Positions 2,515-43,312 of a stretch of 59,075 bases of DNA are shown in pieces. Source of the stretch: Lentimicrobium sp. L6 (lineage in GTDB: Bacteria > Bacteroidota > Bacteroidia > Bacteroidales > UBA12170). Positions within the stretch are counted from its first letter, which is position 1, and each line of letters opens with the position of its first letter. Below the pieces are notes generated by a model. The model worked only from the letters and a program-made list of their open reading frames with translations. It was not told where the DNA came from and ran no database searches. The DNA lies in contig NZ_JABKCA010000024.1 in assembly GCF_013166655.1 (NCBI RefSeq), positions 1 to 59,075 on the forward strand, read 5' to 3'. The position numbers and the translations under genes are program-made.

Positions 2515-3420
2515 TTATTTAAGCTCTTCCTTATAAGGAATAGAGGATTGTGCCCCTTTTCTGGTTACAGAAATCGTAGCTGCTTTATTGGCTATAATAA
2601 TGGAGTTTCTTACCCATAAACCTTCTGATATTCCTTGGGCTAAATAGCCATTAAAAACATCTCCTGCAGCGGTGGAGTCTACTGCAGATACGCGAATACT
2701 TGGAACCAAAATAGATTTACCTTCCTTAGAACTATAATAAGCTCCTCTTTGACCCAAAGTAAGGATGACTCCTTTATTCACTTTTTCGAGAAGCATGGTG
2801 GAAGCTTTTTTTATAGTAGCATCTGTTTTTGGGTTTACACCTACCAAAAAATGTGTTTCAGATTCATTAGGAGTAATATAATCTACATTCGCCCAGATTT
2901 CTTCGTTTAAATACTTAGCAGGCCCTGGGTTTAAAATGGTAGTTACACCATGTTTTTTAGCCATTTGTAAGGAAAACAATACTGTTTCCATGGGGATTTC
3001 AAGTTGAACCAAAACCACATCGGCTTTGGCAATCACATCTTCAGCCTTTTTAATATCTTCTATGGAGAGTTTGTGATTGGCACCTGGTGCTACCATAATA
3101 GAGTTCTGTCCGCTTACATCACCCACCATAATCAAAGCCACTCCAGAAGGTTCTTTTTCATCAACAAAAATATAGTCTGTAGAAATTTGGTCCTTTTTAT
3201 AATTCTCAATGGCCTCTCTTCCAAAATCATCATGACCAACTTTAGCTATTAAACTCACCTTTCCTCCTGCTCTAGCTGCAGCAACGGCTTGATTTGCCCC
3301 TTTTCCACCAAAGTGAATATTAAAACTAGTTGCTAATCTGCTCTCTCCTGGTACCGGAAGATTTGGTGCACATGCTACCATATCTGTATTTATACTACCT
3401 ATAACTACAATTTTCCCCAT
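2515..3420 (-). CDS. rbsK: ribokinase-type PfkB sugar kinase
   Basis: This 301-residue protein is a PfkB-family kinase closest in layout to ribokinase (ATP + D-ribose to ribose-5-phosphate), acting in the cytoplasm. The N-terminal Gly-Ser-Ile-Asn-Thr-Asp substrate motif (8-13), the GGKGANQAVA motif (38-47) and the C-terminal DSTAAGDVFNG motif with catalytic Asp254 are all present, so it should be active. It is the last gene of the long glucan operon, 11 bases behind the GH94 gene. That position is odd for a ribose enzyme. Substrate cannot be read from sequence: it may be ribokinase carried along, or a kinase for another sugar released by the locus. No dedicated glucokinase was seen in the window. 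Confidence 0.85.
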   Translation of the reverse strand: MGKIVVIGSINTDMVACAPNLPVPGESRLATSFNIHFGGKGANQAVAAARAGGKVSLIAKVGHDDFGREAIENYKKDQISTDYIFVDEKEPSGVALIMVGDVSGQNSIMVAPGANHKLSIEDIKKAEDVIAKADVVLVQLEIPMETVLFSLQMAKKHGVTTILNPGPAKYLNEEIWANVDYITPNESETHFLVGVNPKTDATIKKASTMLLEKVNKGVILTLGQRGAYYSSKEGKSILVPSIRVSAVDSTAAGDVFNGYLAQGISEGLWVRNSIIIANKAATISVTRKGAQSSIPYKEELK

Positions 3421-3431
3421 AAGGCTTTATT

Positions 3432-6212
3432 TTATTTCCTTTGTAAAAATACTTTAATATGATTCACTTCTCTATCGCAATACTTGTCCATATTTTTCCT
3501 AGAGACTAAATATTTGCTCAACTTCTGACTGGTAGATACCATTGGAATATCGTTGATACTGATGACTCCAATTACATATTCCGACATTTTATTAAGAGGC
3601 TTGAATACGTAAGTTACCAATAACCTTTTATCCTGAAAATAGAGTTCAATGGAAGCTTCCCCTTTTTCATCGAATTGCGAAGGCACCAATTTGGGTTCCA
3701 GAAGTAAATCTCCTTTTAAACCTCTTACTCCAAACATTTGGCTCGTCAGACTCAACATCATCCATGCCGAAGAACCAGTTAGCCAGGCATAAGATCCTCT
3801 ATCTTCTGGCTCGAAACAAGATGGAATACCAGGGAATATTTTTGAATGTCGAGAATTGGTGGATAAATGAAATACATCATCTAAAACTTGATTGGCTTTT
3901 TTGGAGAATCCACGCTCATATAAACCATAGGCTAGCATAATATTTTGCTGCATCCATTTGCTACCATGCTCTTTATGCCCATAGGCAAAACCTGAAATAC
4001 GGCCTACATTTAAATCTAATTCTTTAAATGGTCTACAGATTCTGAGTCCTTTTTTTCCTTTATCTTTCAGTAATTCTTGAACCGCATTTAGTATTAAAGG
4101 GACGCGCTCGTCTGAAGCTGCATTATTCATGATAGCCAGGGCTTGTGTGGTTAAGTCAATTTGAGTTTTGTCCTTTTTCACACCATCAATAGCTTGACCG
4201 ATATTATCATAATGTCCATTATAAAAACCAGCATTATCAGCATATTGCTTCCATTCTTTATCTTGAATGTGAGCAAATATATGAGCCGATTTGGCTTCCA
4301 AATCTTCTCTAAGACTTATAACACTAATGCTTACTTTTTTTCCACTAATTTGATGTTCTACAGCGGAGAAATATTTATAAACACAACGTTCTTTATCTTT
4401 TATCTGTCGATAATCGAGGCTTTCTTGATCTGCTAAAGTATCAAGCAATGGGAGTATTTCTTTGGCTAATTTTACTTCTGAAATTCCTTTTTCTTCAAGG
4501 AGGGTGAGCCATTGAGCCATTAAGCGTAAATTGTTTCCATAAAATGCATGAAAACCAACCGTTTCGCCTCTCTCTCGAGCCATATCATAAGTATCGTTCC
4601 AATCGGCGCCTTCCAATTGCAATATATTATGTTCTCCCACAGAATAGAATCCAGAAAGTTGCTGGAGTAATAAATGCTCAAGAACGCTTCCATTATATAC
4701 TTCCTGCTCTGCATTTAATTGCTGATTGCCTTGGGAAATATCCCATTGTGCATCTATTCCTTTGCTTCGATAGATATATTGGTCTTTCCAATAACAGAGG
4801 TCTCTCAATAATAAATCGAAGTCACCAGTTTGGTGCATATAAAAGTTGACTACAAATACAGGCCATGCTCCATGATCGCTCCAGGAGCGGGCAACATCAT
4901 TTCTATCTGCAATAAACTCTCCAGGCTCAGAGCCTATAATAGTGGCATTGGAGCCATCCATTCTAATACCTTTGAAATTGTTTATAATTTCATTTTTAGC
5001 ACTAATAGGATCTACTAATAAAACAGAAAGTAAATCTTGCCAAAGGTCTCGCCAGCCTCTACCTCCTCTGCCATAGCTAAAGTCTGGCAAAAATGAATTT
5101 CCTAATTCTTGATTTGCTTTTACTTGATAGATGACCCATTTGGCCCAATTGTCGAAATTAGAATCGGCTGTCGAGAAACGAATTCTATTGGTATATTTCA
5201 GCCAATAAGATTTAGTCTCCTCTATGGCCTGATTTATCTTTTCCTCATCGCCATATTTGGATATCCACTTCTGTGATATTTTATCGTCATCACTGATTCC
5301 TTGGATGATGATAAAGCTAGTTTTTTTATTGGGTTTGATTTCAATATCAGAAAAGCGAAATGCACCAATAGCTTCAAAACCATCCACATCTCCAAGTTCA
5401 TAAGATGGTGCATTTAGCTTTTTGAAAACGGCCTCAGGGTTATCCAAGCTTCCACCCTCCCCTATAAAATCGCTCATCTTCAGCCAAATATGATTGGGTT
5501 TATTACCTTCCGCATCGGCACCTAAAACCATATAACTGGTATGATTTGGGGAATGTCCATTTTCATCGTGGACTATATTTGCTTTAATTCTTGTTCCATG
5601 CTCCTCTTGAAAGATTCTTTGAAACATGGTGGTTACTTGTCGATGATCGCGAACATTATCGGCATGTCGGCCAAAGAGTGGAAGGGAATAAGTAAGATCA
5701 AAAGTTTTGGCTACCGTATCATTATTCTCTACTTCAATATGTATGAGCTCTACTTTGTCGTCTGTAGAAGGAATAAATACCTTCAAGGTACAGGCCAATT
5801 TGAGCACTTTATTTCTTCGTGTTACTGCAAATAAACCAGGTTGAGCATTTACTTCGGATTCATCAGGATTTAGCGTCCATTTGTTGGCTTTTTGCCAAGC
5901 AGATACTCCTGTTGCAGACCAAGGTTTTTCACCTTTTAAGCTAATCCAGCAATTTCTAGAAGCTACGGTTTTGCTAATATCCTCAGTCACTAGAGGAGGG
6001 TTTAAATAATGACTAAATGAGGAGCAAATATCTCCTTTTAAATCTGGGCTTACCCAAGACTTCATTCCGGCAGAATTCATCAAAGGGAAATATAACCTTG
6101 ATAAATAATCGGCCTCAGGTGCTATAAATGCACCACTTTCATTATCGCTAAATGTCCATAATGGCCCTTGTTCTATCCTAGCTAATTTACCCCCAAAGGT
6201 TTTTTTCTTCAT
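3432..6212 (-). CDS. GH94 phosphorylase, laminaribiose-phosphorylase-like
   Basis: A 926-residue cytoplasmic enzyme of the GH94 family (inverting phosphorolysis of beta-glucosides to glucose-1-phosphate). The reading frame opens 29 codons earlier, but the Met at 6212 is preceded by a GGAGG ribosome binding site and starts a typical family N-terminus, so I chose it. The general acid is expected to be Asp540 in Gly-Ala-Asp-Trp-Asn-Asp, within the alpha/alpha barrel. The Thr-Tyr-Asp-Met-Ala extension after it differs from the cellobiose phosphorylase motif elsewhere in this window. Length, motif style and the beta-1,3-glucan neighbours favour laminaribiose phosphorylase, but other beta-glucobioses are possible. 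No signal peptide. It lies between a GPH symporter gene and a kinase gene in one operon. Confidence 0.8.
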   Translation of the reverse strand: MKKKTFGGKLARIEQGPLWTFSDNESGAFIAPEADYLSRLYFPLMNSAGMKSWVSPDLKGDICSSFSHYLNPPLVTEDISKTVASRNCWISLKGEKPWSATGVSAWQKANKWTLNPDESEVNAQPGLFAVTRRNKVLKLACTLKVFIPSTDDKVELIHIEVENNDTVAKTFDLTYSLPLFGRHADNVRDHRQVTTMFQRIFQEEHGTRIKANIVHDENGHSPNHTSYMVLGADAEGNKPNHIWLKMSDFIGEGGSLDNPEAVFKKLNAPSYELGDVDGFEAIGAFRFSDIEIKPNKKTSFIIIQGISDDDKISQKWISKYGDEEKINQAIEETKSYWLKYTNRIRFSTADSNFDNWAKWVIYQVKANQELGNSFLPDFSYGRGGRGWRDLWQDLLSVLLVDPISAKNEIINNFKGIRMDGSNATIIGSEPGEFIADRNDVARSWSDHGAWPVFVVNFYMHQTGDFDLLLRDLCYWKDQYIYRSKGIDAQWDISQGNQQLNAEQEVYNGSVLEHLLLQQLSGFYSVGEHNILQLEGADWNDTYDMARERGETVGFHAFYGNNLRLMAQWLTLLEEKGISEVKLAKEILPLLDTLADQESLDYRQIKDKERCVYKYFSAVEHQISGKKVSISVISLREDLEAKSAHIFAHIQDKEWKQYADNAGFYNGHYDNIGQAIDGVKKDKTQIDLTTQALAIMNNAASDERVPLILNAVQELLKDKGKKGLRICRPFKELDLNVGRISGFAYGHKEHGSKWMQQNIMLAYGLYERGFSKKANQVLDDVFHLSTNSRHSKIFPGIPSCFEPEDRGSYAWLTGSSAWMMLSLTSQMFGVRGLKGDLLLEPKLVPSQFDEKGEASIELYFQDKRLLVTYVFKPLNKMSEYVIGVISINDIPMVSTSQKLSKYLVSRKNMDKYCDREVNHIKVFLQRK

Positions 6213-6381
6213 CTTTTTTTCCTCCAATAAAAAAGGAATATTTGCCGAGGCCTTATTCCCAATCGCATCACCTATATAGAAATGGTATTTATATACCAAA
6301 ATGATGACGCATCAAATTTAAGGATATCTAATGATATTATTGGTATGAACGAAGACGATTATTCCATGTTTTCTGCTTTTT

Positions 6382-7743
6382 TTAATCTTCTTCAACAAAA
6401 TCTATCTTTTCTCTTCTGGCTTCTAAATCTTTTTGCATGATTAAACATGTTTTATGATCGATGCTATAAAAGAAGAGTAAAATAGCCGTGGACATATAGA
6501 GAATACCTGGAAAAACAGAAATCATTAGTTTGATTCCAGTAATTGAACTTACCGTTTGCTCCACATTGGGTTCAAAATGGTAGATGGCCAAAATCCAACC
6601 AGCCAAAGCTCCACCAATTCCCCAACCTGCTTTTTGCGCAAAAGTAGCTGCAGAAAACACCAAACCTGTTGATCTTCTTCCAGTTTTCCATTCAGAATAA
6701 TCTGCGGTATCTGCTAGCATAGTCCATAATAAAGGCACTGCAGGTGCATAGGTCATTTTTGCTAGTATATTTAAAACATATATGCTGATTATATTATCGT
6801 TTCCAGGAATATAAAGCAGCATAAAGAACATTCCCGATATTAAAGAGCTGGCTAAGAACACATTTCTTTTACCAAAACGCTTGGCTAATGGTTTAGAGAA
6901 GGGGATGGCAACGATTAAAGCAATGGTTCCAATGACATTGAATAATTGCACATCAGATTCATTTCCGATATAGTATTTAAAATAGTAGGCAATCGTAAGG
7001 TTTTGCATGGCAAACATCACAAAAGAAATGATTCCCACGAAAAACAGAATAACCCATGGTTTGTTCTTAAAAAGATTCTTTAAATCCTCTTTGAGATTTT
7101 GTTTCTGACCTTTGGGTGGTTTCACTCTTTCTTTGGTGGTTTTGAAAGTAATCATGAATAAGGCAAAACTGATGAAGGCAAATAGGGTTAAAGTATATTG
7201 ATAACCTAAAGCAGTATCACCTTGCCCAAAATACAAGGCCAAAGTAAGTGCTGTACCAGTAACCACAAGCTGACCTATAAATGCAAAAATAAAGCGATAA
7301 GAGTTCAAACCTGCTCTTTCATAAGAATCAGAGGTCATTACTGCACCTAAAGAGGAGTAAGGTAGATTGATGGCGGTAAAAACGGTCATCAATAGGAAAT
7401 AAGTCACCCCTGCATATATCACCTTACCTGTTGGGCCTAAATCCGGGGTGGAGAATGTCAAAACCGCCAATACGCTATATGGTAAGGCCATCCACAAAAT
7501 ATAGGGACGAAACTTGCCCCAACGGGTATTGGTTCTATCGGCAATAATGCCCATAAGTGGATCACTAATCATGTCCCAAACTCTAGCAATTAACATAATA
7601 GTTCCTGCTGCTGCTGCAGAAATACCAAAGGTATCTGTATAAAAAATGAGGATCCAAAAACCCACCATATCCCATACAAAATGAGAAGCAGTATCTCCTA
7701 ATCCATATCCAATTTTTTCTTTTAATGATAATTTTGTTCCCAT
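6382..7743 (-). CDS. GPH-family sugar:cation symporter
   Basis: A 453-residue inner-membrane protein with about 12 hydrophobic segments. It shows the glycoside-pentoside-hexuronide (MelB-like) N-terminal signature: a Lys-Ile-Gly-Tyr-Gly-Leu-Gly-Asp start, Trp-Asp-Met-Ile-Ser-Asp-Pro in helix 2 and Arg-Trp-Gly-Lys-Phe-Arg-Pro-Tyr in the first cytoplasmic loop. Proteins of this family import glycosides with H+ or Na+. It lies 4 bases upstream of nothing but its own operon partners: the clan GH-A lipoprotein gene precedes it by 4 bases and the GH94 gene follows. The likely cargo is therefore a beta-glucan oligosaccharide bound for cytoplasmic phosphorolysis. Substrate and coupling ion are inference. 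Confidence 0.85.
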   Translation of the reverse strand: MGTKLSLKEKIGYGLGDTASHFVWDMVGFWILIFYTDTFGISAAAAGTIMLIARVWDMISDPLMGIIADRTNTRWGKFRPYILWMALPYSVLAVLTFSTPDLGPTGKVIYAGVTYFLLMTVFTAINLPYSSLGAVMTSDSYERAGLNSYRFIFAFIGQLVVTGTALTLALYFGQGDTALGYQYTLTLFAFISFALFMITFKTTKERVKPPKGQKQNLKEDLKNLFKNKPWVILFFVGIISFVMFAMQNLTIAYYFKYYIGNESDVQLFNVIGTIALIVAIPFSKPLAKRFGKRNVFLASSLISGMFFMLLYIPGNDNIISIYVLNILAKMTYAPAVPLLWTMLADTADYSEWKTGRRSTGLVFSAATFAQKAGWGIGGALAGWILAIYHFEPNVEQTVSSITGIKLMISVFPGILYMSTAILLFFYSIDHKTCLIMQKDLEARREKIDFVEED

Positions 7744-7747
7744 GTTT

Positions 7748-8761
7748 TTAATGCTTCTTGGTTTGACTCAAATAACTTTCTTTTACGGTAAAAAAAGCCA
7801 ACTTCTTATTTCTATTGATATCTAGAATTCCCCAATATTCTTCATTTGGACTGCCATCATAGGGTATACCACTGCTATTTGGCGCCCATCCTCCGGGATC
7901 GTATTGCTCGTTATTTCCTGCTTTCCATAACTCATCTATAAAAGCAAAAAGAGTGACTCCTGAGCATATTTCTTGATTTCTAAATGTAGCTTCTAGTATT
8001 TTTGCTGTGGCATCAGCTTGGGCTTGCTCATTAATACCTGCTTCATAACCTGGCTTTTCTACAGTCATATAACTATCTGCACCAGCTTCTGAAAGATACA
8101 TGGGCTTAGAGCTTATGGCCTTCCATTCTCCAAAAATGCTTTCTGGATTGTCCCAACGATAAACATTCATTCCCCAAACATCGATATTGGGGCAAGTGGC
8201 CAAAGCTAAAGAGTCAGGTAATTCCCCATGGGCTGTTGCAACAGGATGATTTGGATCCTGCTGATGAATGAGATCTGCTGCCGTATTTAAAGCAATATAC
8301 CAGTTTATCATATCTCCTTCGAACCATTCAGGATGGTAATTATACTCATTTCCCAATTCCCATAATAAGATGGCGGGATGTGCTTTATACTTTTCAATAT
8401 AGTCGATAAATGACCCTGAAAGAATATCAAAATATCCCTCTTGATTATAGCCAAATCCAATGATTACTTTTATTCCTGCTTCATGAATTTCATCTAACAC
8501 CTTTTTGTCATCCAGCGGAGCATATAGCCTTATGGTATTGATACCAGCTTCTTTCATTAAGGATAAATCTTCCGACAAATGACCGAAATCTCTATGATTG
8601 CTTCCTTTAGGTACTGGGTGATAGCAAATACCTTTGATGAGGTAAGACTCCTCATTCACTAATATTTTATTTCCTGAAATCTTTATTGCATCATCTGTCA
8701 TTTGGTTATTACAGGAAGCCAAGACGATAGTCATGAATAGGATTATAAAAGTTCTCATCAT
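7748..8761 (-). CDS. clan GH-A lipoprotein glycosidase (GH2/GH158-like)
   Basis: A 337-residue lipoprotein (lipobox Leu-Ala-Ser-Cys, Cys17) with a single TIM barrel and no other domain. The barrel has the clan GH-A pair: acid/base Glu139 in Trp-Glu-Leu-Gly-Asn-Glu and probable nucleophile Glu225 in Tyr-Leu-Ser-Glu-Ala-Gly. It resembles the catalytic barrel of GH2 without the jelly-roll and Ig domains. GH158 endo-beta-1,3-glucanases and GH5-like enzymes share the layout, so the family cannot be settled here. It starts 1 base after the GH30 gene stop and precedes a GPH transporter gene, so it probably trims beta-glucan oligosaccharides in the periplasm or at the outer membrane. Retaining glycosidase or transglycosidase are both possible. 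Confidence 0.7.
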   Translation of the reverse strand: MMRTFIILFMTIVLASCNNQMTDDAIKISGNKILVNEESYLIKGICYHPVPKGSNHRDFGHLSEDLSLMKEAGINTIRLYAPLDDKKVLDEIHEAGIKVIIGFGYNQEGYFDILSGSFIDYIEKYKAHPAILLWELGNEYNYHPEWFEGDMINWYIALNTAADLIHQQDPNHPVATAHGELPDSLALATCPNIDVWGMNVYRWDNPESIFGEWKAISSKPMYLSEAGADSYMTVEKPGYEAGINEQAQADATAKILEATFRNQEICSGVTLFAFIDELWKAGNNEQYDPGGWAPNSSGIPYDGSPNEEYWGILDINRNKKLAFFTVKESYLSQTKKH

Positions 8762-8762
8762 T

Positions 8763-10271: not shown

Positions 10272-10292
10272 AATTCCTGATTTTATTTTCCT

Positions 10293-11726
10293 TTAATGAG
10301 ATACTTTTCCACGACGTGCAATTAAGGCTTTTCGTATTTCATGGGCTTTTCCTTCTGTAATATCATATTTCCAAACTATCACTATGGCCATAAGAGCTGT
10401 AAGTATAGGAATAATAATATCAGCAATTCTAAGGTTGGTTAAAGTGTCCACTGTTTGTTGATCTACAGATTGGTCGAAACCCACAAAAGACAAAACAATA
10501 CCACTTGTAAGTAGCGCCAATGCTGTTCCTAATTTTACCATCCACCAGTAAACTGCTCCAAACATTCCTTCCCTACGTTCACCATTATTTAATTCATCTA
10601 AATCACAAACATCAGCTGTCATTGACATCATCAAGGTAAACAAACCACCTATTCCAAAAGATAGGAAAGGGATAGGCATAAACATTAACCAGGGATTTTC
10701 TGGGTTGAATCCCCACCATTTTAAGCCATAACCAATAATAGAAATTAGTGTTGCGATAATGAAAGCATTTTTCTTTCCCATCTTTTCAGAGATTTTAGTG
10801 ACAATAGGAATGACGAGTACAGCAGTAGCAATTGCACTTATGGTTCCGAACCATGCAGGCCAAGTTCCAGATGCTACTTTATCACCATCAAAGAGATAGT
10901 AAACAATAATAAACATGGCAAATTGAGCGACTGTTTGGAAGCCATTAAAAATTAAGAATGTAGCTCCACAAAGCTTCATGAAGGGTTTGTTTTTAAGGGT
11001 CAATTTTATCCCTTTTACAAATTCTTTGGTGTTTGCTGCTAAATCTTTCATTGATAAATTCACCATTTTACTGTCATCTGGAGCAACTCTTTCTTTGTTG
11101 AAAAGAGCAGGTAAGATTCCAAGTATCATGCAGGCTCCACCAACCATAATAGATAGTATTCTTGCACCTTCGGGAGCAGATTCAAATATAGTTGGATCAT
11201 AGATAATCACCCAAAACCATGGAGCAATCATCCAGGCAATTTGTCCCATCCATTGCGAAACAGCCATTAATCTAGTACGCTCATTATAATCGGGAGTCAT
11301 CTCATAACCCAATCCAATTAATGGCGTAGCAAAAATGGTATAACCGATATAGAAAAATACGGAAACAATTAAAAAGTAAAAGAAATTATAGGTCTGAGAA
11401 TTCTCAGGGTTTAATTGCCACATGATCATAAATGCCACTCCAGTAATCACACTTCCTATGAAAATATAAGGTTTTCTTCTTCCCCATTTCGATTTGGTAT
11501 TATCTGAAATAAAACCCATAATAGGATCGGTAAGTGCATCTAAAAGCCTTGGAAGAGCACCCAGCAAACCTGCTAATATTGGATTCATATTTAATGACAT
11601 CACCAGCACCACCATAAACACTCCTAATGCTGCTGGAAATAACTGATTTGCTAGATGTCCTGAACCGAATGCTAGTTTTTGTCCAAAGGGGACTATGTCT
11701 TCTTTTGCTGTTTTAAAATGTGCCAT
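10293..11726 (-). CDS. second GPH-family sugar symporter
   Basis: A 477-residue polytopic inner-membrane protein of the GPH/MelB-like family. It has about 12 membrane segments, Leu-Asp-Ala-Leu-Thr-Asp-Pro-Ile-Met-Gly in helix 2 and Lys-Trp-Gly-Arg-Arg-Lys-Pro-Tyr in the loop after it. It is clearly diverged from the other GPH protein of this operon, which suggests a different oligosaccharide size or linkage. It lies between the lipoprotein GH17 and GH30 genes with gaps of 31 and 21 bases. The three permeases in this operon (this one, the other GPH and the sugar porter) would feed the cytoplasmic phosphorylases. Confidence 0.85.
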   Translation of the reverse strand: MAHFKTAKEDIVPFGQKLAFGSGHLANQLFPAALGVFMVVLVMSLNMNPILAGLLGALPRLLDALTDPIMGFISDNTKSKWGRRKPYIFIGSVITGVAFMIMWQLNPENSQTYNFFYFLIVSVFFYIGYTIFATPLIGLGYEMTPDYNERTRLMAVSQWMGQIAWMIAPWFWVIIYDPTIFESAPEGARILSIMVGGACMILGILPALFNKERVAPDDSKMVNLSMKDLAANTKEFVKGIKLTLKNKPFMKLCGATFLIFNGFQTVAQFAMFIIVYYLFDGDKVASGTWPAWFGTISAIATAVLVIPIVTKISEKMGKKNAFIIATLISIIGYGLKWWGFNPENPWLMFMPIPFLSFGIGGLFTLMMSMTADVCDLDELNNGERREGMFGAVYWWMVKLGTALALLTSGIVLSFVGFDQSVDQQTVDTLTNLRIADIIIPILTALMAIVIVWKYDITEGKAHEIRKALIARRGKVSH

Positions 11727-11757
11727 AGGATTAGTTTTACGAGTTTATTATTATAGT

Positions 11758-12804
11758 TTATTGCATCACTTTTTTAGGTTTTCTATCAACCGTATATAAG
11801 CCCCAATGTTTTTCGGCTCCCATCATATTTCCAGGTTCTCCTTTCCAATCTTCGTCAAAAGCCTCGAACCAAAAAGAGGTGATATTCATCTCCTTAGACC
11901 ATTGCATGAATTCTTGATAATACTGTAATTGCTTTTCTTCACTAGCACGCTCCCCAAATTCTGTAGCTATGGTAGCCCAACCTGCTTCAGTTATTACTAT
12001 TCTGGCATTAGGTAGTGTTTTTCTAACTTCATTATAATTCTCTATGGTAAAGGACAAGCCTTCGTTGATGTCTTTCCCTTCCCAGACAGGATAAATATGT
12101 AGAGAAACAAAGTCGACAGCCTTAGCTAACTCTATACCATGCTCTGCCCACCACTTGTAATTATCGGCTACCGTCACCAACTGTGGAACCGACTTCTTTA
12201 CTCTTTTTACATAGGAAATAATGGTATCCGTTGCTACTTTATGATCATTCCAATCCACTAAGGCTTCGTTTCCGACGTTGATGGCAATAATGATGTCTTG
12301 GTATTTATCAGCCAAAGCAATGGCCTTTTCAATTTCTAAAAGATTGAGCTCTTTATTTGCTGCCAGCTCTTCTTCAGGAATGGGTTCTGTTAACCAAGAA
12401 CAGGTTTCGTGGGCACTCAATTCGGCTTGAAGCCAAATGCCCAGCATCACTTTGATATCAATATTATTCTCCTTGATAACTCGCAAGGTCAGTTCTGAAT
12501 TCTCGCCACTATCATATAATCGAATTAAATGAAAATCGGCTTGCTCAGAAATGATTTTCAGGTCCTCAAGAACCTCCTCATAACTTGGGTTTACAGCGCC
12601 ATCGCCTCTGTCTGGATGTTGTCCACTCCTAAAGCCAGAATAGCAAACAGCTTTTGAAGTTCCCATTAGGAGAGCCTTTGTAGTTTGTTTAGTCATTATA
12701 GTTGAGTGCTTAGATTCGCTCATATTTTGTTGGTTTTGCTTGTGTTCGGTCTTACATGAAAATAGCGCTAATAAGCTGATTAATAAAATGATTTGTGTTC
12801 TCAT
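11758..12804 (-). CDS. GH17 beta-1,3-glucanase lipoprotein
   Basis: A GH17 protein of about 348 residues from the chosen start. The frame is open 20 codons further up, with other possible ATGs at 12831 and 12864. The Met at 12804 follows an AGGAAG and gives the cleanest lipoprotein signal (Leu-Phe-Ser-Cys, Cys17). The barrel carries acid/base Glu180 in Asn-Val-Gly-Asn-Glu and nucleophile Glu273 in Ile-Thr-Glu-Ala-Gly-Trp, then Phe-Asp-Glu-Asp-Trp-Lys and a His-Trp-Gly-Leu-Tyr ending typical of bacterial GH17. The family cleaves or transfers beta-1,3-glucan with retention. As a lipoprotein it should act in the periplasm or on the surface. Its partner GH17 upstream lacks a signal, so the two work in different compartments. 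Confidence 0.85.
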   Translation of the reverse strand: MRTQIILLISLLALFSCKTEHKQNQQNMSESKHSTIMTKQTTKALLMGTSKAVCYSGFRSGQHPDRGDGAVNPSYEEVLEDLKIISEQADFHLIRLYDSGENSELTLRVIKENNIDIKVMLGIWLQAELSAHETCSWLTEPIPEEELAANKELNLLEIEKAIALADKYQDIIIAINVGNEALVDWNDHKVATDTIISYVKRVKKSVPQLVTVADNYKWWAEHGIELAKAVDFVSLHIYPVWEGKDINEGLSFTIENYNEVRKTLPNARIVITEAGWATIATEFGERASEEKQLQYYQEFMQWSKEMNITSFWFEAFDEDWKGEPGNMMGAEKHWGLYTVDRKPKKVMQ

Positions 12805-12877
12805 GATTCTTCCTATTATTGCTGTTTTCATTTGTTTGTTATTTATTCTGCTCAAATTTTGCAAGAGCTGTTGTAAA

Positions 12878-13023: not shown

Positions 13024-13908
13024 TTAATATTTCAATTTTTCATCAGTATTCCAAAGTCCCCAAAATGGTCCCACATCACCTTCAGAATCTATTTTCCAAG
13101 ATTCATCGAATGAAGAGAAATAGAATAAGTCAATATCATCTTCTCTTGACCATGCCTGTGCATTCAGATAATAAATCAAAGCATTGATTTTGGAGGGCTG
13201 TGCACCATGAAGCTTTTCTCCTTCGTTGGGCCATCCTGTTTCGGTGATGATTACCTTTTTACCTTTAGCTACTTTTTTAGCTCTGGCATACATATCCTTC
13301 ATATAAAGTAAGGAATAATCTATGCTACAGCCTTCCCAAAAAGGATAACAATTGGCTAAAATCACATCACAAGCATATGCAATTTGAGGATGGTTTTCAA
13401 ACTCGTAATACGCGTCAACATATCCCACTGAAATCTCTGGAATTTCTTGTTTTACTCTATTGATATAATCTAAAAGTTCTGTTTCTGTTAAGTCTCCTCT
13501 ATACAAGACTTCATTTCCAACCACAGCAATATCAACATGGCCCTCTTTAGCCATTTCAATAAGCTTTGTTATTTCCTTTTCGTTTACTTCTTTATCTTCC
13601 CCTAACCATGCGCCTACTAGGGTTTTTAGTCCCATTTCATGCGCTATTTGAGGAATCATTTCGTTGCCTTCGGTACAAGAAAAGGATCTGACCCACTTGG
13701 TATGAGGCTGAATAATTTCTAATCGTCTACGAATTTGTTCTTCGCTCAATTGATCACCAGGTTTTTGCCCGTTTACATAAGGACTAAAACACATACCATG
13801 CATAGGATCCTTTAGACTCTCATGAAATAAAGAAATGATTTCTTCTTCTGTTTTGTGTAGGGCATTTACACCTGTTAAGGCCCATATTTTTTTGCTATTA
13901 AATGACAT
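13024..13908 (-). CDS. cytoplasmic GH17 enzyme
   Basis: A 294-residue GH17 domain with nothing else attached. There is no signal peptide or membrane segment, so it should be cytoplasmic, which is unusual for a beta-1,3-glucanase family. The acid/base is Glu133 in Val-Val-Gly-Asn-Glu and the nucleophile is Glu223 in Ile-Thr-Glu-Thr-Gly-Trp. The C-terminal Phe-Asp-Glu-Ser-Trp-Lys and Phe-Trp-Gly-Leu-Trp are in place. It starts 7 bases after the stop of the GH161/GH149-type phosphorylase gene, so the two are surely co-expressed. The likely role is cutting or transglycosylating imported beta-1,3-oligosaccharides to supply the phosphorylases. Which of the two activities applies is unknown. Confidence 0.85.
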   Translation of the reverse strand: MSFNSKKIWALTGVNALHKTEEEIISLFHESLKDPMHGMCFSPYVNGQKPGDQLSEEQIRRRLEIIQPHTKWVRSFSCTEGNEMIPQIAHEMGLKTLVGAWLGEDKEVNEKEITKLIEMAKEGHVDIAVVGNEVLYRGDLTETELLDYINRVKQEIPEISVGYVDAYYEFENHPQIAYACDVILANCYPFWEGCSIDYSLLYMKDMYARAKKVAKGKKVIITETGWPNEGEKLHGAQPSKINALIYYLNAQAWSREDDIDLFYFSSFDESWKIDSEGDVGPFWGLWNTDEKLKY

Positions 13909-23713: not shown

Positions 23714-23724
23714 AATTATCATTT

Positions 23725-27311: not shown

Positions 27312-27322
27312 AGTTTTTAATA

Positions 27323-30300: not shown

Positions 30301-30352
30301 GTAGGCCAATAGTCAACATTAGAGCGAAAACTACTAGTAAAACATTTTTCAT
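27323..30352 (-). CDS. susC: SusC-type TonB-dependent oligosaccharide transporter
   Basis: A 1009-residue outer-membrane transporter. Signal peptide to Leu-Gln-Ala-Gln (about 20), a carboxypeptidase-regulatory-like domain (about 22-95), a plug (about 110-225, with Val-Ile-Arg-like Ile-Arg-Ile-Arg-Gly and Leu-Lys-Asp-Ala-Gln-Ala-Ala-Ile-Tyr-Gly-Ala-Ser-Gly-Ala-Asn-Gly), then a 22-strand-type barrel ending in a phenylalanine-containing strand. It uses TonB energy to import glucan oligosaccharides captured by SusD. It heads the operon susC-susD-two lipoproteins. A minus-7 element and a striking inverted repeat lie upstream, next to a SusR-like regulator gene. Confidence 0.95.
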   Translation of the reverse strand: MKNVLLVVFALMLTIGLQAQSITVSGRVFAEGDDLGLPGATILEKGTTNGVVTDFDGNYSISVSPDAVLVFSFVGMAGQEMAVEGRTQIDVTLSNSTTLDEVVVIGYGEIKKKDVTGAVSQMNAEKIEKLKPVKVEQALQGTMAGVNVTSQSGAPGSGYNIRIRGVATNGDAAPLVIVDGYVGDLGTLSPSDIESVTVLKDAQAAIYGASGANGVILVKTKQGKKNSPTRVTLNSSLGMQETSRKIPLLDATEYAAILNESYAAAGDPIPYPDLSGLGQGTNWQDELFQTAPLFDNNLSVYGGTEKSTYTLSASDLRQQGIIGGDKTGFNRSTARLSLTTELYEWLNFSTNVSYSHIDRKTINDFGLASVLFNALNMPSVHPVYGESGDYFLAPSDLGIEVINPMAQIANTYNDYDINKLFGNASLDASFAQYFKATARIGFNTAYAKSKSFSPIVDYGGKVFDVSRSSVYQDRNNYNDYTFDAFVTYERTFNETHHVTAMLGTTVLKSWGDYLGATGYDVPNNSVDFADISLTNGLVDSKNIGSYVYDTRKLSYFARMQYDYKGKYLISAMLRRDASMKFGPENAAAYFPSVTGGWILSDEAFMKDINNVDLVKLRGSYGILGNDRIGDFLYLSQLSGEAVYVFDNMLTYGTAIGPLPNPSVKWERSKQFDLGADLSFFRDKLDFTVDYYSKVTDQLLIGNIPVSGILGITAPGASGPTVNAGAVKNSGLEFSVGYRGQIVEGLKFNVNYNVTTIRNEVLEVDNGTGFIEGGNFSVGQPLISRMEEGQPIGYFYGYQTDGIFQTQAEVDAHPSQIALGAPAQPGDFRFKDSNNDGVINTEDRVNLGNPIPDVVMGFSFSLDYKGIDFAINAYASLGNDIVRNYERAQPNVNRMSYILDRWTGPGTTNEVPRVTTAATANNVFSDFYVEDGSYLRIQKIQLGYTIPERWTSKASIQKFRLFASIDNPFTFTNYTGFDPAASNGSPIGAGIDYGFYPASRIYTFGFSLNL

Positions 30353-33505: not shown

Positions 33506-33558
33506 TAATTGAATATTTAACCTCGCTAAGTTATGAAAATCAATGGCAATATTACATA

Positions 33559-34761: not shown

Positions 34762-34764
34762 TAT

Positions 34765-35826
34765 CTATTCCTTTATGAAACGACCTTTGTCTAAATTTTC
34801 ATTTCCTGAAGAAATTTGATAATAATACATCCCTCCCTTTAATTCTGAGATATTCAAGCTCACCAACTTTTCTTGTATGCTTCTTTTCAGAACTAGCTTA
34901 CCCAAAGAGTTATATAGAGAGAACTCTAGAGCTTCAGGACCATTATGTTCACTAGAATCTATGAATAATTTTTCTTGAGCAGGATTTGGATATACCTTTA
35001 TGGTTTTGTCTGTCTCTTTTTCAGGAATGGCATTTGGCGTAGTTCCAGGAGCGTAAACTCTAATGTAATCAATGACAAATTGAGTGGGGAATGCATCGGA
35101 ATCTACCCCCTCTACTCCACCCCAGTTTCCGCCTACAGCAAGGTTGACAAGAATGTGGAATCTTTTATCGAAGGGCCAAGCTTGCCAATTTCCTTGATTC
35201 TCAAATGTAAAATAAAGTTCATCGTCAATATACATTTTGATGTAATCGGCTGTCCATTCGCAAGCATATACATGAAAAGCCTCTTCACAATCGGGGACTG
35301 GTTTTGCTACACCAACTTGAGTTCCGATGATGTGGTTATAGCTTTTGGTGTGGACTGTTCCATGGACATTCTCGGTATCGTAGCCCACATGTTCCATGAT
35401 ATCGATTTCTCCACTACCGGGCCATCCTCCATATTCCCAATCGGTGGGCAACATCCAAAAGGCGGGCCAGGTTCCTCTTCCGCTTGGAAGTTTGGCTCTC
35501 ATTTCGAAATAACCATATTGCCAATCGCCTTTGTTTTTAGTAATGAGACGAGCTGAAGAATAAGCTTTTCCACTAAAAAACTCGTAGTGGGCTTCAATAA
35601 TTAGATTTCCATTTTCAACTCGAGAGTTTTCTAGTCTACCATCGGCATAATATTGCAATTCATTATTTCCCCATCCGTTGCCACCCACATCGTAGCCCCA
35701 CTTAGCCGTATCTGGTAGTCCTTCATAATTAAACTCGTCGGACCAAATGACTTCTCTATTTTGAGAGGAGGCTAAAACAGGAAAAAGAAAAAGAGCTAAA
35801 AAGAGATATATTAGTTTGTTCATCAT
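34765..35826 (-). CDS. T9SS-secreted GH16 laminarinase-type enzyme
   Basis: A 353-residue protein: signal peptide to about residue 21 (Ala-Ser-Ser-Gln), GH16 domain (about 24-260) with Gly-Glu-Ile-Asp-Ile-Met-Glu (Glu140, Asp142, Glu145), and a type IX sorting domain (about 270-353; Val-Tyr-Pro-Asn-Pro-Ala start, Lys-Gly-Gly-Met-Tyr-Tyr-Tyr core). Unlike the two lipoprotein GH16 enzymes of the locus it should be exported by T9SS and attached to, or released from, the surface. It probably makes the first cuts in beta-1,3-glucan. Its upstream region, including the first codons, has been tandemly duplicated. Confidence 0.9.
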   Translation of the reverse strand: MMNKLIYLFLALFLFPVLASSQNREVIWSDEFNYEGLPDTAKWGYDVGGNGWGNNELQYYADGRLENSRVENGNLIIEAHYEFFSGKAYSSARLITKNKGDWQYGYFEMRAKLPSGRGTWPAFWMLPTDWEYGGWPGSGEIDIMEHVGYDTENVHGTVHTKSYNHIIGTQVGVAKPVPDCEEAFHVYACEWTADYIKMYIDDELYFTFENQGNWQAWPFDKRFHILVNLAVGGNWGGVEGVDSDAFPTQFVIDYIRVYAPGTTPNAIPEKETDKTIKVYPNPAQEKLFIDSSEHNGPEALEFSLYNSLGKLVLKRSIQEKLVSLNISELKGGMYYYQISSGNENLDKGRFIKE

Positions 35827-36134
35827 AATATCTTAATTATCATTGAGTAAAAGTAGTAATATCTAGCATACGAGTGGCTTTAGTAAGTTTAGTTAAAATG
35901 GTTTCGTATTGATAGTGACATCTCTTTAAAGCATCTATTTCTTATTTTGCATTATGGTTTTATGTTTTTCAATATTTAAAAAAAGGATAGAGCTAAAAAG
36001 AGACTCTAGTTTGTTTATGATAAAAAAATTATCATTTGTTGTTTATAGTGATATCTAGTATACGAGTGGTATTAGTAAGTTTAGTTAAATTGGTTTCGTA
36101 TTGATAGTGATATCTCTTTATAGCATCTATTTCC
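35792..36134. repeat. tandem duplication of the T9SS-GH16 upstream region
   Basis: About 145-150 bp are repeated. 35792-35942 contains the first codons of the GH16 gene and its upstream DNA; 35989-36134 is a diverged copy offset by 192-197 bp. The copy keeps the text equivalent to the GH16 N-terminus (on the minus strand AAACAAACTA and CTCTTTTTAGCTC), but both ATGs are mutated. The best-conserved block, 35861-35942 versus 36053-36134, includes TAGTAAGTTTAGTTAAA and TGGTTTCGTATTGATAGTGA. This fills the approximately 330 bases between GH16 and GH3; no other gene is seen there. Confidence 0.85.
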
Positions 36135-36153
36135 TTTATATTTTATCTTTAAT

Positions 36154-38511
36154 TTATGGTGTATATGTAATTCCTTTACACTTTTCAATAAAATCTTTCA
36201 CCCCTTGCTGATCAACTTCTCCTCCTGTTACATAAGGTAATTTTATGATGGGATTATCAATAAGGAAATCATTAAATACGGCATCGTCTAAGGATTTTCC
36301 TTCGGGAACAAAATTACCAATCCATTGAGGAACCATGGCTTTTAATAATTCACGAGTTTCTTTATTATCCCAGTATTCTCTAAAGAAAGTATACTCATTA
36401 TAAGCCAATGGCACTATTTGAGTAGATTGTAGTTGAATGGTTTCTTGTAGTTTGATATCCCTAGAGGAAGCTCCAACTAAAATATCAAAAGCACCACTTT
36501 CAGCAATCCAAAGCGCTCTATGTCCATCGAAATAGGAAAAATCGCGAGTATTGAGTTCGAAACTTACTTCTTTGGTTTCCCCTGGATTAAGTTCTATTTT
36601 AGCAAATTTCTTGAGTTCTTTTTCGGGACGTTGTAAAGTGCTTTCTTCATCCTTTACATATAACTGAACTATTTCTTTTCCTTTAGTTTCTCCTGTGTTT
36701 TTAATATTCATAGTTACTACTAAACCATCTGTATCTTTAATGTTTTTAGCAGATACTGTGAGGTCGCTATATTCAAAAGTAGTATAGGAAAGTCCGAATC
36801 CAAATGGGAAAAGAGGCTCCATTTTCTTCTCGTCATAATATCGATAGCCCACAAAAATGCGCTCCCCATAAATCACTTCTCCTTGCTCACCAGGAAAATT
36901 AAAAAACGCTGGTGTATCTTCTAGTTTCATTGGGAATGTTTCCGCCAATTTTCCGGAAGGATTCACTTTTCCAAAAAGCACATCGGCTGTGGCTCCTGCT
37001 CCCGCTTGTCCACCTAACCAGGTCTCTAATACTCCATCTACCTCATTTATCCAAGGCATGGTAATGGCAGAACCATTGGTTAAAACTACCACTGAATTTT
37101 CTTGAACTAGAGCAATTTCGCTGATCAGTTTATTATGCGATGGAGGTAAATCAATATGAGTTCTATCAATTCCTTCCGATTCATAATGTAAGGGTAAGCC
37201 CGCAAATACTAAAGCAATATCAGCTTTAGCTGCAGCTTCTTTAGCTTCGGCTATCATAGAATAATCTACATCATCTGTTAGGCTATAACCTTGGGAGTAT
37301 GTGAATTTAAAATCATTACCATATTCTTGATTTAGAATATCGAGAACTTTATCGAGTTGAGTGGGTTTTACTTCTGAGCTACCATTTCCTTGAAAACGTG
37401 GATTATTAGCAAATTCACCAATAATGGCCACTTTCTTATACTTCTTCTTAGTTATAGGAAGTACCTTATTGTCATTCTTCAATAGTGTTGCTGCCTCTGC
37501 TGCTACTTGTCTGGCAAAGGCATGGTGTGCTTGTGCATCCAATTCCACTCCTTCTTTCTCCAGAGATTTTGCTTTTAATACCACCTGTAGAATTTCTTTC
37601 ACTAAAGCATCTAATACAGACGCCTCTAATTCGCCATTTTTAACGGCTTCTACTATGAGTTCATCGTTAAAGGTACTTACACCAGGCATTTCGATATGCA
37701 TTCCTGCTTTTATTCCTTCCACTCGGTCAACCACAGCAAACCAATCAGAAATCACAATGCCTTCAAATCCCCATTGATTTTTTAATACCTCTGTTAAAAT
37801 ATAAGGAGATTCGGTTCCGTATATCCCTTGAACTCGATTATAGCAGGCCATCACTGTCCAAGGTTGTGCCTTTTTAACCGCAATTTCAAAAGGCCTTAAA
37901 TAGATTTCATGAAGCGTACGAATATCCATATCAGAATTATTATACATCCTCATGGTTTCCACATTATTAGCCACATAGTGCTTTAAAGAAGTTCCTACTC
38001 CTTGGCTTTGTACCCCATTAATAAAGGCAGCACCAAGTTCTCCAGAAAGAATGGGATCTTCGGAGAAAAACTCAAAATTTCTTCCCGCTAAAACCGATCT
38101 TTTAATATTAACCCCAGGCCCTAATAATACATTCACATCCTGAGCTTGACATTCTTCTCCAAGAGCTACACCCAACTTCTCTATCAAATCTAAATCCCAA
38201 GTAGCAGCCAAAGCTGAAGCTGTAGGAAAACAAGTGGCAGGTAATTGGTCACCATAACCCGGTACATTAGTTGCAGGAGCACGGCGAAGACCATGAGGGC
38301 CATCGGAAACCCAAATCCATGGGATATCTAATCGCTCAATGGGCTTGGTACTCCAATCATCTCTGCCAGAACATAAAGATGCTTTTTCTTCTAAAGTCAT
38401 TTTTGAAACTAAGTCCTCAATTTTTTGTTTCATGTCCTCATTGCTTTTGTCCTGAGCGTTTAAAGAAATTACGCCTAATAATAGTATTCCAATAATGATA
38501 TAGTTTCTCAT
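36154..38511 (-). CDS. GH3 beta-glucosidase (exported)
   Basis: A 785-residue GH3 enzyme with a signal peptide (to about residue 19, Leu-Asn-Ala-Gln) and the full three-domain layout: TIM barrel with Lys-His-Tyr-Val-Ala-Asn and nucleophile Asp in Val-Ile-Ser-Asp-Trp, alpha/beta domain, and C-terminal fibronectin-III-like domain. Family members remove terminal beta-linked glucose with retention. It should act in the periplasm on oligosaccharides brought in by SusC. It follows a second GH3 gene by 18 bases and is the last gene of the unit that begins with cellobiose phosphorylase. The linkage specificity (beta-1,3, 1,4 or 1,6) cannot be told from sequence. Confidence 0.92.
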   Translation of the reverse strand: MRNYIIIGILLLGVISLNAQDKSNEDMKQKIEDLVSKMTLEEKASLCSGRDDWSTKPIERLDIPWIWVSDGPHGLRRAPATNVPGYGDQLPATCFPTASALAATWDLDLIEKLGVALGEECQAQDVNVLLGPGVNIKRSVLAGRNFEFFSEDPILSGELGAAFINGVQSQGVGTSLKHYVANNVETMRMYNNSDMDIRTLHEIYLRPFEIAVKKAQPWTVMACYNRVQGIYGTESPYILTEVLKNQWGFEGIVISDWFAVVDRVEGIKAGMHIEMPGVSTFNDELIVEAVKNGELEASVLDALVKEILQVVLKAKSLEKEGVELDAQAHHAFARQVAAEAATLLKNDNKVLPITKKKYKKVAIIGEFANNPRFQGNGSSEVKPTQLDKVLDILNQEYGNDFKFTYSQGYSLTDDVDYSMIAEAKEAAAKADIALVFAGLPLHYESEGIDRTHIDLPPSHNKLISEIALVQENSVVVLTNGSAITMPWINEVDGVLETWLGGQAGAGATADVLFGKVNPSGKLAETFPMKLEDTPAFFNFPGEQGEVIYGERIFVGYRYYDEKKMEPLFPFGFGLSYTTFEYSDLTVSAKNIKDTDGLVVTMNIKNTGETKGKEIVQLYVKDEESTLQRPEKELKKFAKIELNPGETKEVSFELNTRDFSYFDGHRALWIAESGAFDILVGASSRDIKLQETIQLQSTQIVPLAYNEYTFFREYWDNKETRELLKAMVPQWIGNFVPEGKSLDDAVFNDFLIDNPIIKLPYVTGGEVDQQGVKDFIEKCKGITYTP

Positions 38512-38529
38512 CTCCCTTACTTTTATGGA

Positions 38530-40878: not shown

Positions 40879-40891
40879 TTCTTTATCCAGT

Positions 40892-43312
40892 TTAGTCTAG
40901 TGTAATCTTTACATTATAAGTCTTGCTTTCGGTGTCTAATGGAAGAGGTCCCTCCCATACATTACCATCCACAAAACAAGTCATATGATCACCACCATTA
41001 TTTACAATGTCGATGTGATAAGTATTACCTCTATAAACACGCGTAGCTTTAAACCCCTTTAAATGTGCTGGGATTTTAGGATCAATAACTAATCCCTTAT
41101 AATCTGGTTTGATTCCCAAAATATGTTGGCTCACGGAGAAAAAGTTCCATGCTGCGGTTCCCGTTAACCAAGAATTTTTGGCTTCCCCTGGTTTGGCGGC
41201 ATCTTTTCCGGCTATCATTTGAGAATATACATAAGGTTCTGTTTTATGCAACTCGCTAATGTCTTCTAAATAAGCAGGTGCTATTCTGGTATAATAATCA
41301 AATGCTTTTTCTTTGTTTCCGAGCATGGCTTCAGAAATAATAATCCAAGGATTATTATGACAGAATATTCCAGCATTTTCCTTATAACCTGGAGGATAAG
41401 AGGTGATTTCGCCAAGGTTGAGTTTGTATTTGGTATAAGGAGGATTCAATAAAACAATACCATAAGGTGAAGCCAATCGCTCGGCAACACTATCCATGGC
41501 TTTTTGTGCTCTACCGTCTTCATGACCAATTCCTGCCATTACACAGAAGCCTTGAGACTCAATAAATATTTGACCCTCTTCATTTTCTTTAGATCCTACT
41601 TTTTCACCATAATAATCGTAGGCTCTCAAGAACCAATCACCATCCCAAGCTGACTCGTCTATCGCATTTTTCATATTAGCGATATGTTTCTTAGCTTGTT
41701 CTGCTTCTTCATGCTCTCCTCTGAGTTCACATATTTTGGCAAATTCTTCTCCGTAAATCACAAACATACCAGCGATCATCACTGATTCTGCTACTTTTCC
41801 TTTTTGGTTTTGGGTGGTTTGGAATGATTCTCCAGGTTTGTCGGAGAAACAATTCAAATTGAGGCAGTCGTTCCAATCAGCTCTACCTATCAAAGGTAAG
41901 TGATGAGGTCCTAAATTATTTACTACATGATAAAATGATCGCTTGATATGCTCAAACATGGGGAACTCTTCTCCATCATTATTAAATGGAGCCTTATAAT
42001 CCAATAATGACCAATCACCAGTTTCTTTAATATAAGAAGAAACAGAGAAAATAAGCCATAGTGGATCATCGTTAAAGTTACCACCTACTTCGTGATTTCC
42101 TTTTTTAGTGAGAGGTTGATATTGATGATAAGCACTACCATCCTCCAATTGTGTGCTGGCCAAATCGATAATTCTTTGACGAGCCAGTTCAGGTACCAAA
42201 TGTACCATTCCTATAATATCTTGATTAGAATCGCGGAATCCCATACCACGACCAATTCCCGATTCGAAGAAGGAAGCAGAACGAGAAAAGAAATAGGTCA
42301 CCATATTTTGATATTGGTTCCAAATATTCACCATTCTGTCTAATTTCTCATCCTCACTCTTAATAGTAAGTTTACTGAGTAGCTTATTCCAATATGCTTT
42401 TAATTTGGCTATAGAAGCATCTACTTGTTCGCTGGTTTGGAATTGAGACAACATAGACTCGGCATTGGTTTTATTAATGACATTAGGAGCAATGAATTTC
42501 TCTTCCTCTTTATTTTCAGCATATCCCAAAACAAACACCAAGTCTTTTTCTTCGCCTGGAGCTAATTCCACCTCTAAATAATGAGAAGCAATAGGAGACC
42601 AACCATGAGCATGGGTGTTTCCACTTGTTCCCTCAGTGACCATTTCTGGAGTATCGAATCCATTATAAGCTCCCAAGAAAGATTCTCTATCGGTATCAAA
42701 ACCTTTAATCTCTTGATTTACGGAGTAGAAAGCAAAATGATTTCTTCTTTCACGATACTCGGTTTTGTGGAAGATGGTAGAATTTTCAATTTCCACTTCA
42801 CCGGTATTGAAATTACGTTGAAAGTTGGTCATATCATCTAAAGCATCCCATAAAGCCCACTCCACAAAAGAATGTAATTTGATGGATTTTTTCTCAGAAC
42901 TCTTGTTTTTCAGTTTTACCCTTTGAACTTCTCCATTAAAATCTAGAGGAACAAAGTAAAGTACTTCTGCTTCTAGACCATTCAATTCTCCTTTTATGGT
43001 GGAATAACCCAAACCATGACGACATTCGTATTTGTCAAGTGGAGTTTTGACAGGTTTCCATCCTGGCGACCAAATCTTCCCTCCATCATTTATATAAAAA
43101 TACTTTCCTCCGTCATCTGTAGGTACATTATTGTATCTGTACCTGGTGATTCTTCTCATTTTAGCATCTTTATAGAAGCTATATCCACCCGCTGTATTCG
43201 ACATCAAACTAAAAAAGCTCGATGTTCCCATATAATTGATCCACGGTTGTGGTGTCTTGGGATTCGTAATCACGTATTCTCTATTATTATCGTCGAAATG
43301 TCCGTATTTCAT
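40892..43312 (-). CDS. cbp: cellobiose phosphorylase (GH94)
   Basis: An 806-residue cytoplasmic enzyme whose length and motifs match characterised cellobiose phosphorylases (cellobiose + phosphate to glucose-1-phosphate + glucose). Visible landmarks are the N-terminal Phe-Asp-Asp-Asn-Asn-Arg-Glu-Tyr, [12 protein letters not shown], [11 protein letters not shown], general acid Asp482 in [10 protein letters not shown], and His-Asn-Asn-Pro-Trp near the C-terminus. No signal peptide. It heads an operon with two GH3 genes. Its presence in a beta-1,3-glucan locus suggests that cellobiose also arises, as from mixed-linkage beta-1,3/1,4-glucan. Confidence 0.93.

Follow-up and report, generated by a model that had tools for sequence, protein, structure and literature searches.

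Known laminarin loci and the locus of this study

Much of the carbon stored in the sea is laminarin (PMC13188888), and phosphorylases of glycoside hydrolase (GH) family GH149 are a regular part of the polysaccharide utilization loci (PULs) that Bacteroidota devote to it. This article deals with such a locus in Lentimicrobium sp. L6, a member of the Bacteroidales. The window is the whole contig C24, 59,075 bases, from a 5.1-Mb assembly of 195 contigs that is 96.5% complete, and between positions 2515 and 43312 it encodes three predicted phosphorylases, that is, a GH149 beta-1,3-glucan phosphorylase, a GH94 laminaribiose phosphorylase (LBP) and a GH94 cellobiose phosphorylase (CBP). A GH149 yielding glucose-1-phosphate is "often" encoded in the laminarin PULs that marine Bacteroidota possess (PMC11093988), PULs pairing GH149 with GH16, GH17, GH3 or GH30_1 were described with the family (PMC5827456), and expressed bloom PULs have orders such as GH149-GH0-GH30_1-GH17 (PMC10108472). 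GH149 also occurs in Formosa laminarin loci (PMC6246565) and in most Muricauda laminarin clusters, being replaced by GH3 in some (PMC13188888). A preliminary description of this DNA held that most described laminarin loci rely on hydrolysis, which does not agree with these reports (PMC13188888, PMC11093988, PMC10108472, PMC5827456); GH149 is regular in known Bacteroidota loci, so phosphorolysis itself is not the surprise. The proposal that imported beta-glucan oligosaccharides are phosphorolysed in the cytoplasm is sustained by family and layout, but not as a contrast to hydrolytic loci.

The Muricauda clusters likewise contain GH16, two GH17, GH30, MFS, GH149, a LuxR-type regulator and PKD proteins, and their GH17 pair is of the same kind as that of the window, namely a lipoprotein GH17A and a signal-less transglycosylase GH17B (PMC13188888). 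Formosa has TonB receptors and SusD-like proteins alongside these GH families (PMC6246565), and Polaribacter the order GH149-GH0-GH17-GH16_3-GH30_1 (PMC10108472). Compared with all three, the window adds a GH94 LBP and a ribokinase after the last MFS gene; its GH30 has a lipoprotein signal, whereas the Muricauda GH30 is predicted to be cytoplasmic, and, unlike the GH149 laminarin PULs, it has a probable cellobiose unit next door. In the open-licence literature searched, as far as the accessible parts of these texts go, no locus was found to be described as combining GH149 with a GH94 LBP. The nearest system is the GH94-GH161 tandem (GH161 being mainly from Paenibacillus), for which two phosphorylase families acting on the oligosaccharide and then on the disaccharide have also been proposed (PMC6484121); the window differs in having GH149 for GH161 and SusC/D plus MFS for ABC transporters, and its GH149 type can itself reach a degree of polymerization (DP) of 2. 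The mixed-linkage glucan locus of Blautia producta also places GH16 outside and a phosphorylase inside (PMC10318527), but it belongs to a Gram-positive bacterium and has an ABC transporter and one GH94 cellodextrin phosphorylase. Known, then, are the GH149-type laminarin locus and the idea of phosphorolysis; apparently new is the GH149-plus-LBP variant beside a probable cellobiose unit.

A probable GH149-type laminarin locus with an added LBP gene

The region is best explained, with somewhat better than even confidence, as a known GH149-type Bacteroidales laminarin locus, extending from the regulator and SusC genes to the ribokinase gene (about 33505 to 2515), to which LBP has been added, beside a second unit of CBP and GH3. 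The unusual part is the LBP at the end of the locus. The genes on which this reading turns are as follows (aa, amino acids).

2515-3420, minus strand: ribokinase-like PfkB kinase (RbsK), encoded behind LBP at the end of the locus; TIGR02152 357.7 bits, cut-off 299.65
3432-6212, minus strand: GH94 laminaribiose phosphorylase (LBP) of 926 aa without a recognisable signal peptide; 6ggy, WRD 387-389, WND 538-540
13916-17368, minus strand: GH149 beta-1,3-glucan phosphorylase of 1150 aa without a recognisable signal peptide; NF058639, 6hq6, WRD 469, WND 652
40892-43312, minus strand: GH94 cellobiose phosphorylase (CBP) of 806 aa without a recognisable signal peptide; PF17167 571 bits, 3qde 1263 bits

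All 23 genes scored between 2515 and 43312 lie on the minus strand. By profile matches they include three GH16, a GH30, a lipoprotein GH17, a clan GH-A lipoprotein (GHA) and two GH3, the hydrolases named in the preliminary description, as well as three MFS transporters, which bear out its three inner-membrane symporters (MFSa, MFSb and the sugar porter, SP), and the three clan GH-Q phosphorylases LBP, GH149 and CBP. Not named there are the genes for SusC and SusD (25827-30352), a regulator with Y_Y_Y and LuxR domains, two PKD lipoproteins, a protein with a type IX secretion system (T9SS) tail, a DUF418 protein and the ribokinase. The core layout is SusC/D–PKD–GH16–GH149–GH17–GH17–MFS–GH30–GH-A–MFS, with LBP at the end, and the block shows the SusC/D pair with GH16, GH17, GH30 or GH3 by which Bacteroidota laminarin PULs are recognised. 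Signal peptides were judged by an N-terminal hydropathy count, not by SignalP, and lipoproteins by lipobox calls; by this count none of the three phosphorylases has a hydrophobic N-terminus, as had been stated earlier. Moreover, all three contain WND plus WRD or FRD; for the GH149 enzyme Pro_7066, RD and WND have been named as donor and catalytic motifs, respectively (PMC6771811). The family assignments, the motifs, the lack of signal-like N-termini, the gene order and its conservation are direct observations.

The 926-aa protein is, by similarity, a GH94 laminaribiose phosphorylase, as the label "laminaribiose-phosphorylase-like" had anticipated: it matches the Paenibacillus enzyme PsLBP (6ggy) with 762 bits over 870 residues, including the catalytic-loop region, and the next solved chain with 80 bits. 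A start at TTG 6299 (an open reading frame of 955 codons) was rejected; relatives align from the ATG at 6212, 29 codons downstream, so the gene is taken as 3432-6212. No assayed Bacteroidota LBP was seen in the literature read, and two LBPs from uncultured bacteria are listed in PMC8950772. The LBP tree, computed only from rows fetched with this family, none an assayed LBP, has 49 rows drawn from the best 80 of at least 546 confirmed stretches, records near the window possibly being omitted from the scan; two rows were omitted for a stop in the translated match, and the remainder from other phyla was thinned to every second. In it, a branch with 100/100 support unites 13 Bacteroidota rows, the window included, with one Calditrichaceae row, and the window groups with its congener G003, then with G002, then with G239, with full support. 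The Calditrichaceae LBP gene, which lies beside a GH30 piece (L061:342-3110), may perhaps have come by gene transfer. In Paenibacillus rhizophilus (L102:6731-12673), LBP is found near a protein 23% identical to the GH149, presumably a GH161.

The 1150-aa protein is a member of GH149, predicted to phosphorolyse beta-1,3-oligosaccharides. It matches the family model NF058639 with 1681.2 bits over residues 16-1148 (cut-off 1150), its best solved chain is 6hq6 (1286 bits), and WRD 469 and WND 652 are aligned to that structure. The preliminary description had left it as "GH161/GH149-type"; the second half of this label stands and the first is rejected, since the only two other chains listed, 9qqk (a GH161) and 9h8v, reach 69 and 70 bits.

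Distribution of GH149 and LBP

Among 393 genomes of the order, GH149 was found in 47 (E 1e-100 or better) and LBP in eight (E 1e-50 or better), and comparison of the lists shows both in the window's own genome only. A direct LBP test of 50 other GH149-bearing genomes, 46 from the order scan plus G003, G004, G008 and G009, gave one positive, G003 (2/51 with the window). Conversely, 14 LBP-bearing genomes tested (17 entries, three pairs identical) include two with GH149, again the window and G003, both of genus g1. Within this genus (11 genomes, several assemblies incomplete) full-length LBP is present in three and GH149, partly as contig-end fragments, in seven, two of these with LBP and five without. 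G002 has its LBP in an SP-GHA-LBP locus without GH149, so LBP has changed locus type within the genus, presumably towards the GH149 locus.

The surroundings were compared in 47 GH149 stretches (5-20 kb) of 46 genomes, G010 giving two; G253, G324, G336 and the short piece of G009 were left out of this count. LBP lies within none of them (that of G003 is in the next stretch). SP-GHA-GH149 order is seen in nine of the 47, three with GH3 between, and SP-GHA-LBP in six of 12 LBP stretches, five more having SP-LBP (GHA at lower scores in two); therefore, GH149 and LBP can fill the same place. The GHA of those SP-GHA loci is only about 25-28% identical to that of the window. The six SP-GHA-LBP loci (G002, G056, G112, G210, G211, G239) carry an LBP of the window's branch, with SP in 6/6, SusC/D in five and GH16 in four, but differ from the window in that no GH149 was found in the six genomes and no GPH symporter match in the stretches. 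MFSa is present in 17/47 GH149 stretches, and no GPH symporter matched in the 11 LBP stretches counted, nor in L183, where LBP is cut at the edge. That either GH149 or LBP can follow one and the same transporter pair is a functional hint for Bacteroidota LBPs. G181 repeats the core order of the window from SusC to MFSa, minus the T9SS-tailed protein T9SSa and SP, with no LBP in its genome.

The probable cellobiose unit and the congener G003

The preliminary description regarded the block as one locus built around three phosphorylases. Its assignment of the CBP is well founded, with 1263 bits to the solved CBP 3qde over residues 1-804 and 464 bits to chitobiose phosphorylase, but the single locus is not upheld, since CBP is on another contig in G003 and a CBP match above 300 bits is present in 0/47 GH149 and 0/12 LBP stretches from other genomes. 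In addition, a 327 bp gap separates CBP-GH3-GH3 from the remaining block, and none of 16 stretches with CBP-type matches in 11 other genomes has GH149 or LBP, although four of the 16 are only 34-35% identical and may be other GH94. Upstream of the laminarin genes, CBP and GH3 form a second, neighbouring unit, to which the Nudix regulator and the further SusC/D genes (43744-49545) probably belong. This unit probably handles cellobiose, and its substrates are probably beta-1,4 or mixed-linkage products. Its further genes are the following.

36154-38511, minus strand: GH3 enzyme (GH3a); PF01915, PF00933, 7ms2 816 bits
38530-40878, minus strand: GH3 lipoprotein (GH3b); PF00933, 5jp0 BoGH3B 792 bits
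43744-44511, minus strand: Nudix plus winged-helix regulator (NrtR/AraR type), near CBP and outside the block first described; PF21906, PF19368, PF00293
44844-49545, plus strand: second SusC/SusD pair, beside the Nudix regulator and likewise outside that block; PF07715, PF13715, PF07980, PF14322

G003 belongs to the same genus g1, and its assembly is 86% complete. One contig repeats DUF418 (part), regulator, SusC and so on to GH149-GH17-GH17-MFSb-GH30-GHA-MFSa-LBP-RbsK, with identities to the window of 84% for LBP, 74% for GH149 and 77% for RbsK, which adjoins LBP here as well; RbsK has no match in the 11 other LBP stretches counted. The LBP was suspected to be a pseudogene ("2 TAA" in the match table), but its frame is open from the ATG. 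These laminarin genes are on C34, CBP (92%) and GH3b (86%) on C192, and the Nudix regulator and second SusC/SusD pair, conserved at 87-91%, on C242; GH3a was not matched in those G003 stretches that were read. The end of C192 is about 160 bp past the CBP start, and the beginning of C242 about 130 bp past the regulator end, so the two contigs probably adjoin.

Beyond the break between the halves there are about 36 kb of further sequence on C34 and about 48 kb on C192 (part of that sequence was read). On C192 (L058:6366-6900) GH16c is reduced to about its first 30 codons, and next to them lies a fragment of a permease gene, which we take to be FtsX-like; this fragment, 90 residues, is 92% identical to an intact copy on C34 (L176:2896-6888), where the intact permease precedes the C-terminal DUF418 part (residues 222-395 matched). 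The parts of GH16c and DUF418 lost in G003 are those through which the window connects the two halves; the connected arrangement is therefore probably the older one, which G003 has lost. The phosphorylase genes of both halves are still open in G003, so the linkage is not needed.

Proposed pathway and alternative explanations

From this we infer substrates, cell compartment, order of action, energy gain and regulation. Surface GH16 enzymes would cut laminarin, SusC/D would import the pieces, and the lipoprotein GH17, GH30 and the GH-A enzyme would trim and debranch them. MFS symporters would move short beta-1,3 oligosaccharides inside, where the cytoplasmic GH17 may remodel them, GH149 would take off glucosyl units as glucose-1-phosphate, and LBP would convert the last disaccharide to glucose and glucose-1-phosphate. 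Such a division fits the substrates given in PMC6484121, that is, DP 2 or more for GH149 and DP 2 only for GH94 LBP. A chain of n glucose units would yield up to n-1 glucose-1-phosphate and one glucose, an ATP saving on paper only. The window's own genome has three matches to the phosphoglucomutase-family domain PF02878 and four to ROK, one of them weak. More tentatively, and with the chances somewhat against it, LBP may have moved, in one Bacteroidales genus, from the SP-GHA-LBP to the GH149 locus type, creating a two-step chain-length relay, GH149 and LBP being alternative cassette parts elsewhere. If the two enzymes act in turn, the relatives in the genus with (2) or without (5) LBP would make it possible to examine directly if the energy yield is limited by the last disaccharide.

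Several points weigh against a laminarin locus with a functional LBP addition. Since laminaribiose can be split by GH149 as well, LBP may be redundant, and beta-glucans other than laminarin are possible substrates of the GH16 and GH3 enzymes. SP was considered as a fixed LBP partner and rejected: it occurs also in 20/47 GH149 stretches, and the G003 assembly yields no SP match at E 1e-60. By chance, about one of the 393 genomes is expected to have both phosphorylases, and the probability of no overlap in the other seven LBP genomes is P = 0.41; therefore, neither avoidance nor attraction is seen, and the idea that LBP and GH149 are mutually exclusive is not borne out. The truncated genes of G003 suggest that CBP-GH3-GH16c-DUF418-regulator was once one block, that is, a closer link to CBP, and the broken GH16c and DUF418 also weaken the notion that CBP was never linked to the laminarin genes.

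That closer link is an argument for regarding the whole block as one locus with three phosphorylases under one beta-glucan programme, for example for mixed-linkage glucan, with CBP for beta-1,4 and LBP and GH149 for beta-1,3 bonds. CBP is adjacent to the laminarin genes on the same strand, in G003 the GH16c remnant stays with GH3b and the DUF418 piece with the regulator as if the block had once been joined, and LBP (39% identical), a CBP-like protein (55%) and GH3 come together in an Anaerolineales locus (L100:901-12721). We nevertheless think it unlikely: the G003 halves lie on separate contigs with long sequences past the break, the phosphorylase genes of both persist, CBP accompanies GH3b and probably the Nudix regulator and its SusC/D pair, and the CBP-type stretches of other genomes are devoid of GH149 and LBP. 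Similarly improbable to us is that LBP was merely carried along to its present place and takes no part in a relay, either because it duplicates GH149 or because its substrate is some other disaccharide that the locus produces. The pair is rare and GH149 reaches DP 2 (PMC6484121), but the LBP-RbsK order is kept in two species at the identities given above, with open LBP frames, and the active-site motifs of LBP are intact. It is most improbable that the phosphorylases work in the synthetic direction, turning glucose-1-phosphate into a beta-1,3-glucan reserve inside the cell; the reaction is reversible in vitro (PMC5827456), but the enzymes sit in an import and degradation locus. The GH149-type laminarin locus with added LBP thus remains the preferred reading.

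Other genes of the locus

The remaining genes between MFSa and GH16c are listed below.

6382-7743, minus strand: MFSa, GPH-family cation symporter; TIGR00792 407 bits, cut-off 231
7748-8761, minus strand: clan GH-A lipoprotein (GHA), tentatively a GH158/GH2-like TIM barrel; PF02836 38.9 bits, 9oro GH158 45.7 bits
8763-10271, minus strand: GH30 lipoprotein; PF02055 266 bits, lipobox LSSC
10293-11726, minus strand: MFSb, GPH-like symporter; PF13347 236 bits, TIGR00792 199 bits, below cut-off 231
11758-12804, minus strand: GH17 lipoprotein; PF00332 28.5 bits, cut-off 28.2, 6fcg GH17 114.7 bits, lipobox LFSC
13024-13908, minus strand: second GH17, no signal peptide, beta-1,3-glucanosyltransferase-like; PF00332 50 bits, 4wtp 105 bits
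17412-18977, minus strand: sugar porter (SP), MFS; PF00083 362 bits, TIGR00879 357 bits
19189-20451, minus strand: T9SSa, secreted all-beta protein with T9SS tail; PF18962, TIGR04183
20488-21318, minus strand: GH16 lipoprotein (GH16a); PF00722 94.7 bits, lipobox
21319-22620, minus strand: GH16 plus PKD lipoprotein (GH16b); PF00722, PF18911, lipobox
22775-23722, minus strand: PKD lipoprotein, putative surface glycan binder; PF18911 27.1 bits, cut-off 27, lipobox
23725-25809, minus strand: PKD lipoprotein, putative surface glycan binder; PF18911, lipobox
25827-27311, minus strand: SusD; PF07980, PF14322
27323-30352, minus strand: SusC; TIGR04056 844 bits
30623-33505, minus strand: sensor-regulator with propeller, Y_Y_Y and LuxR HTH; PF07494, PF07495, PF00196
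33559-34761, minus strand: DUF418 protein; PF04235
34765-35826, minus strand: GH16c, laminarinase-like GH16 with T9SS tail; PF00722, PF18962, 3iln laminarinase 333 bits

The second GH17, absent from the preliminary description, lies 7 bp from GH149, and its closest solved chain, 4wtp, is a beta-1,3-glucanosyltransferase. It lacks a signal peptide, so not every hydrolase is for the outside, contrary to what had been supposed. The best solved chains for GH30 are glucosylceramidases. In GHA, E139 and E225 are invariant across four rows; its structure model is of low confidence (pLDDT 56, pTM 0.62), and the first fold matches, GH158 and GH2, are only a hint. The T9SSa model is all-beta, also with low confidence (pLDDT 51, pTM 0.41), and in some other genomes proteins of this type are again encoded close to GH149 and LBP.

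The Bacteroidota promoter pattern consists of TTG, 17 to 22 bases and TAnnTTTG. Of the minus-strand genes scanned, the Nudix regulator gene is the only one preceded by a full match, the other 23 having none; TAnnTTTG alone is also found upstream of LBP, SP and SusC. Full matches number 10 over the whole minus strand and five over the plus strand, and the scan gives no information on regulation.

In the gap between GH3a and GH16c (35735-36154) there are two similar copies, about 165 bp each, of the start region of GH16c; both are also found in G003, and they are perhaps the remnant of a duplicated GH16 gene.

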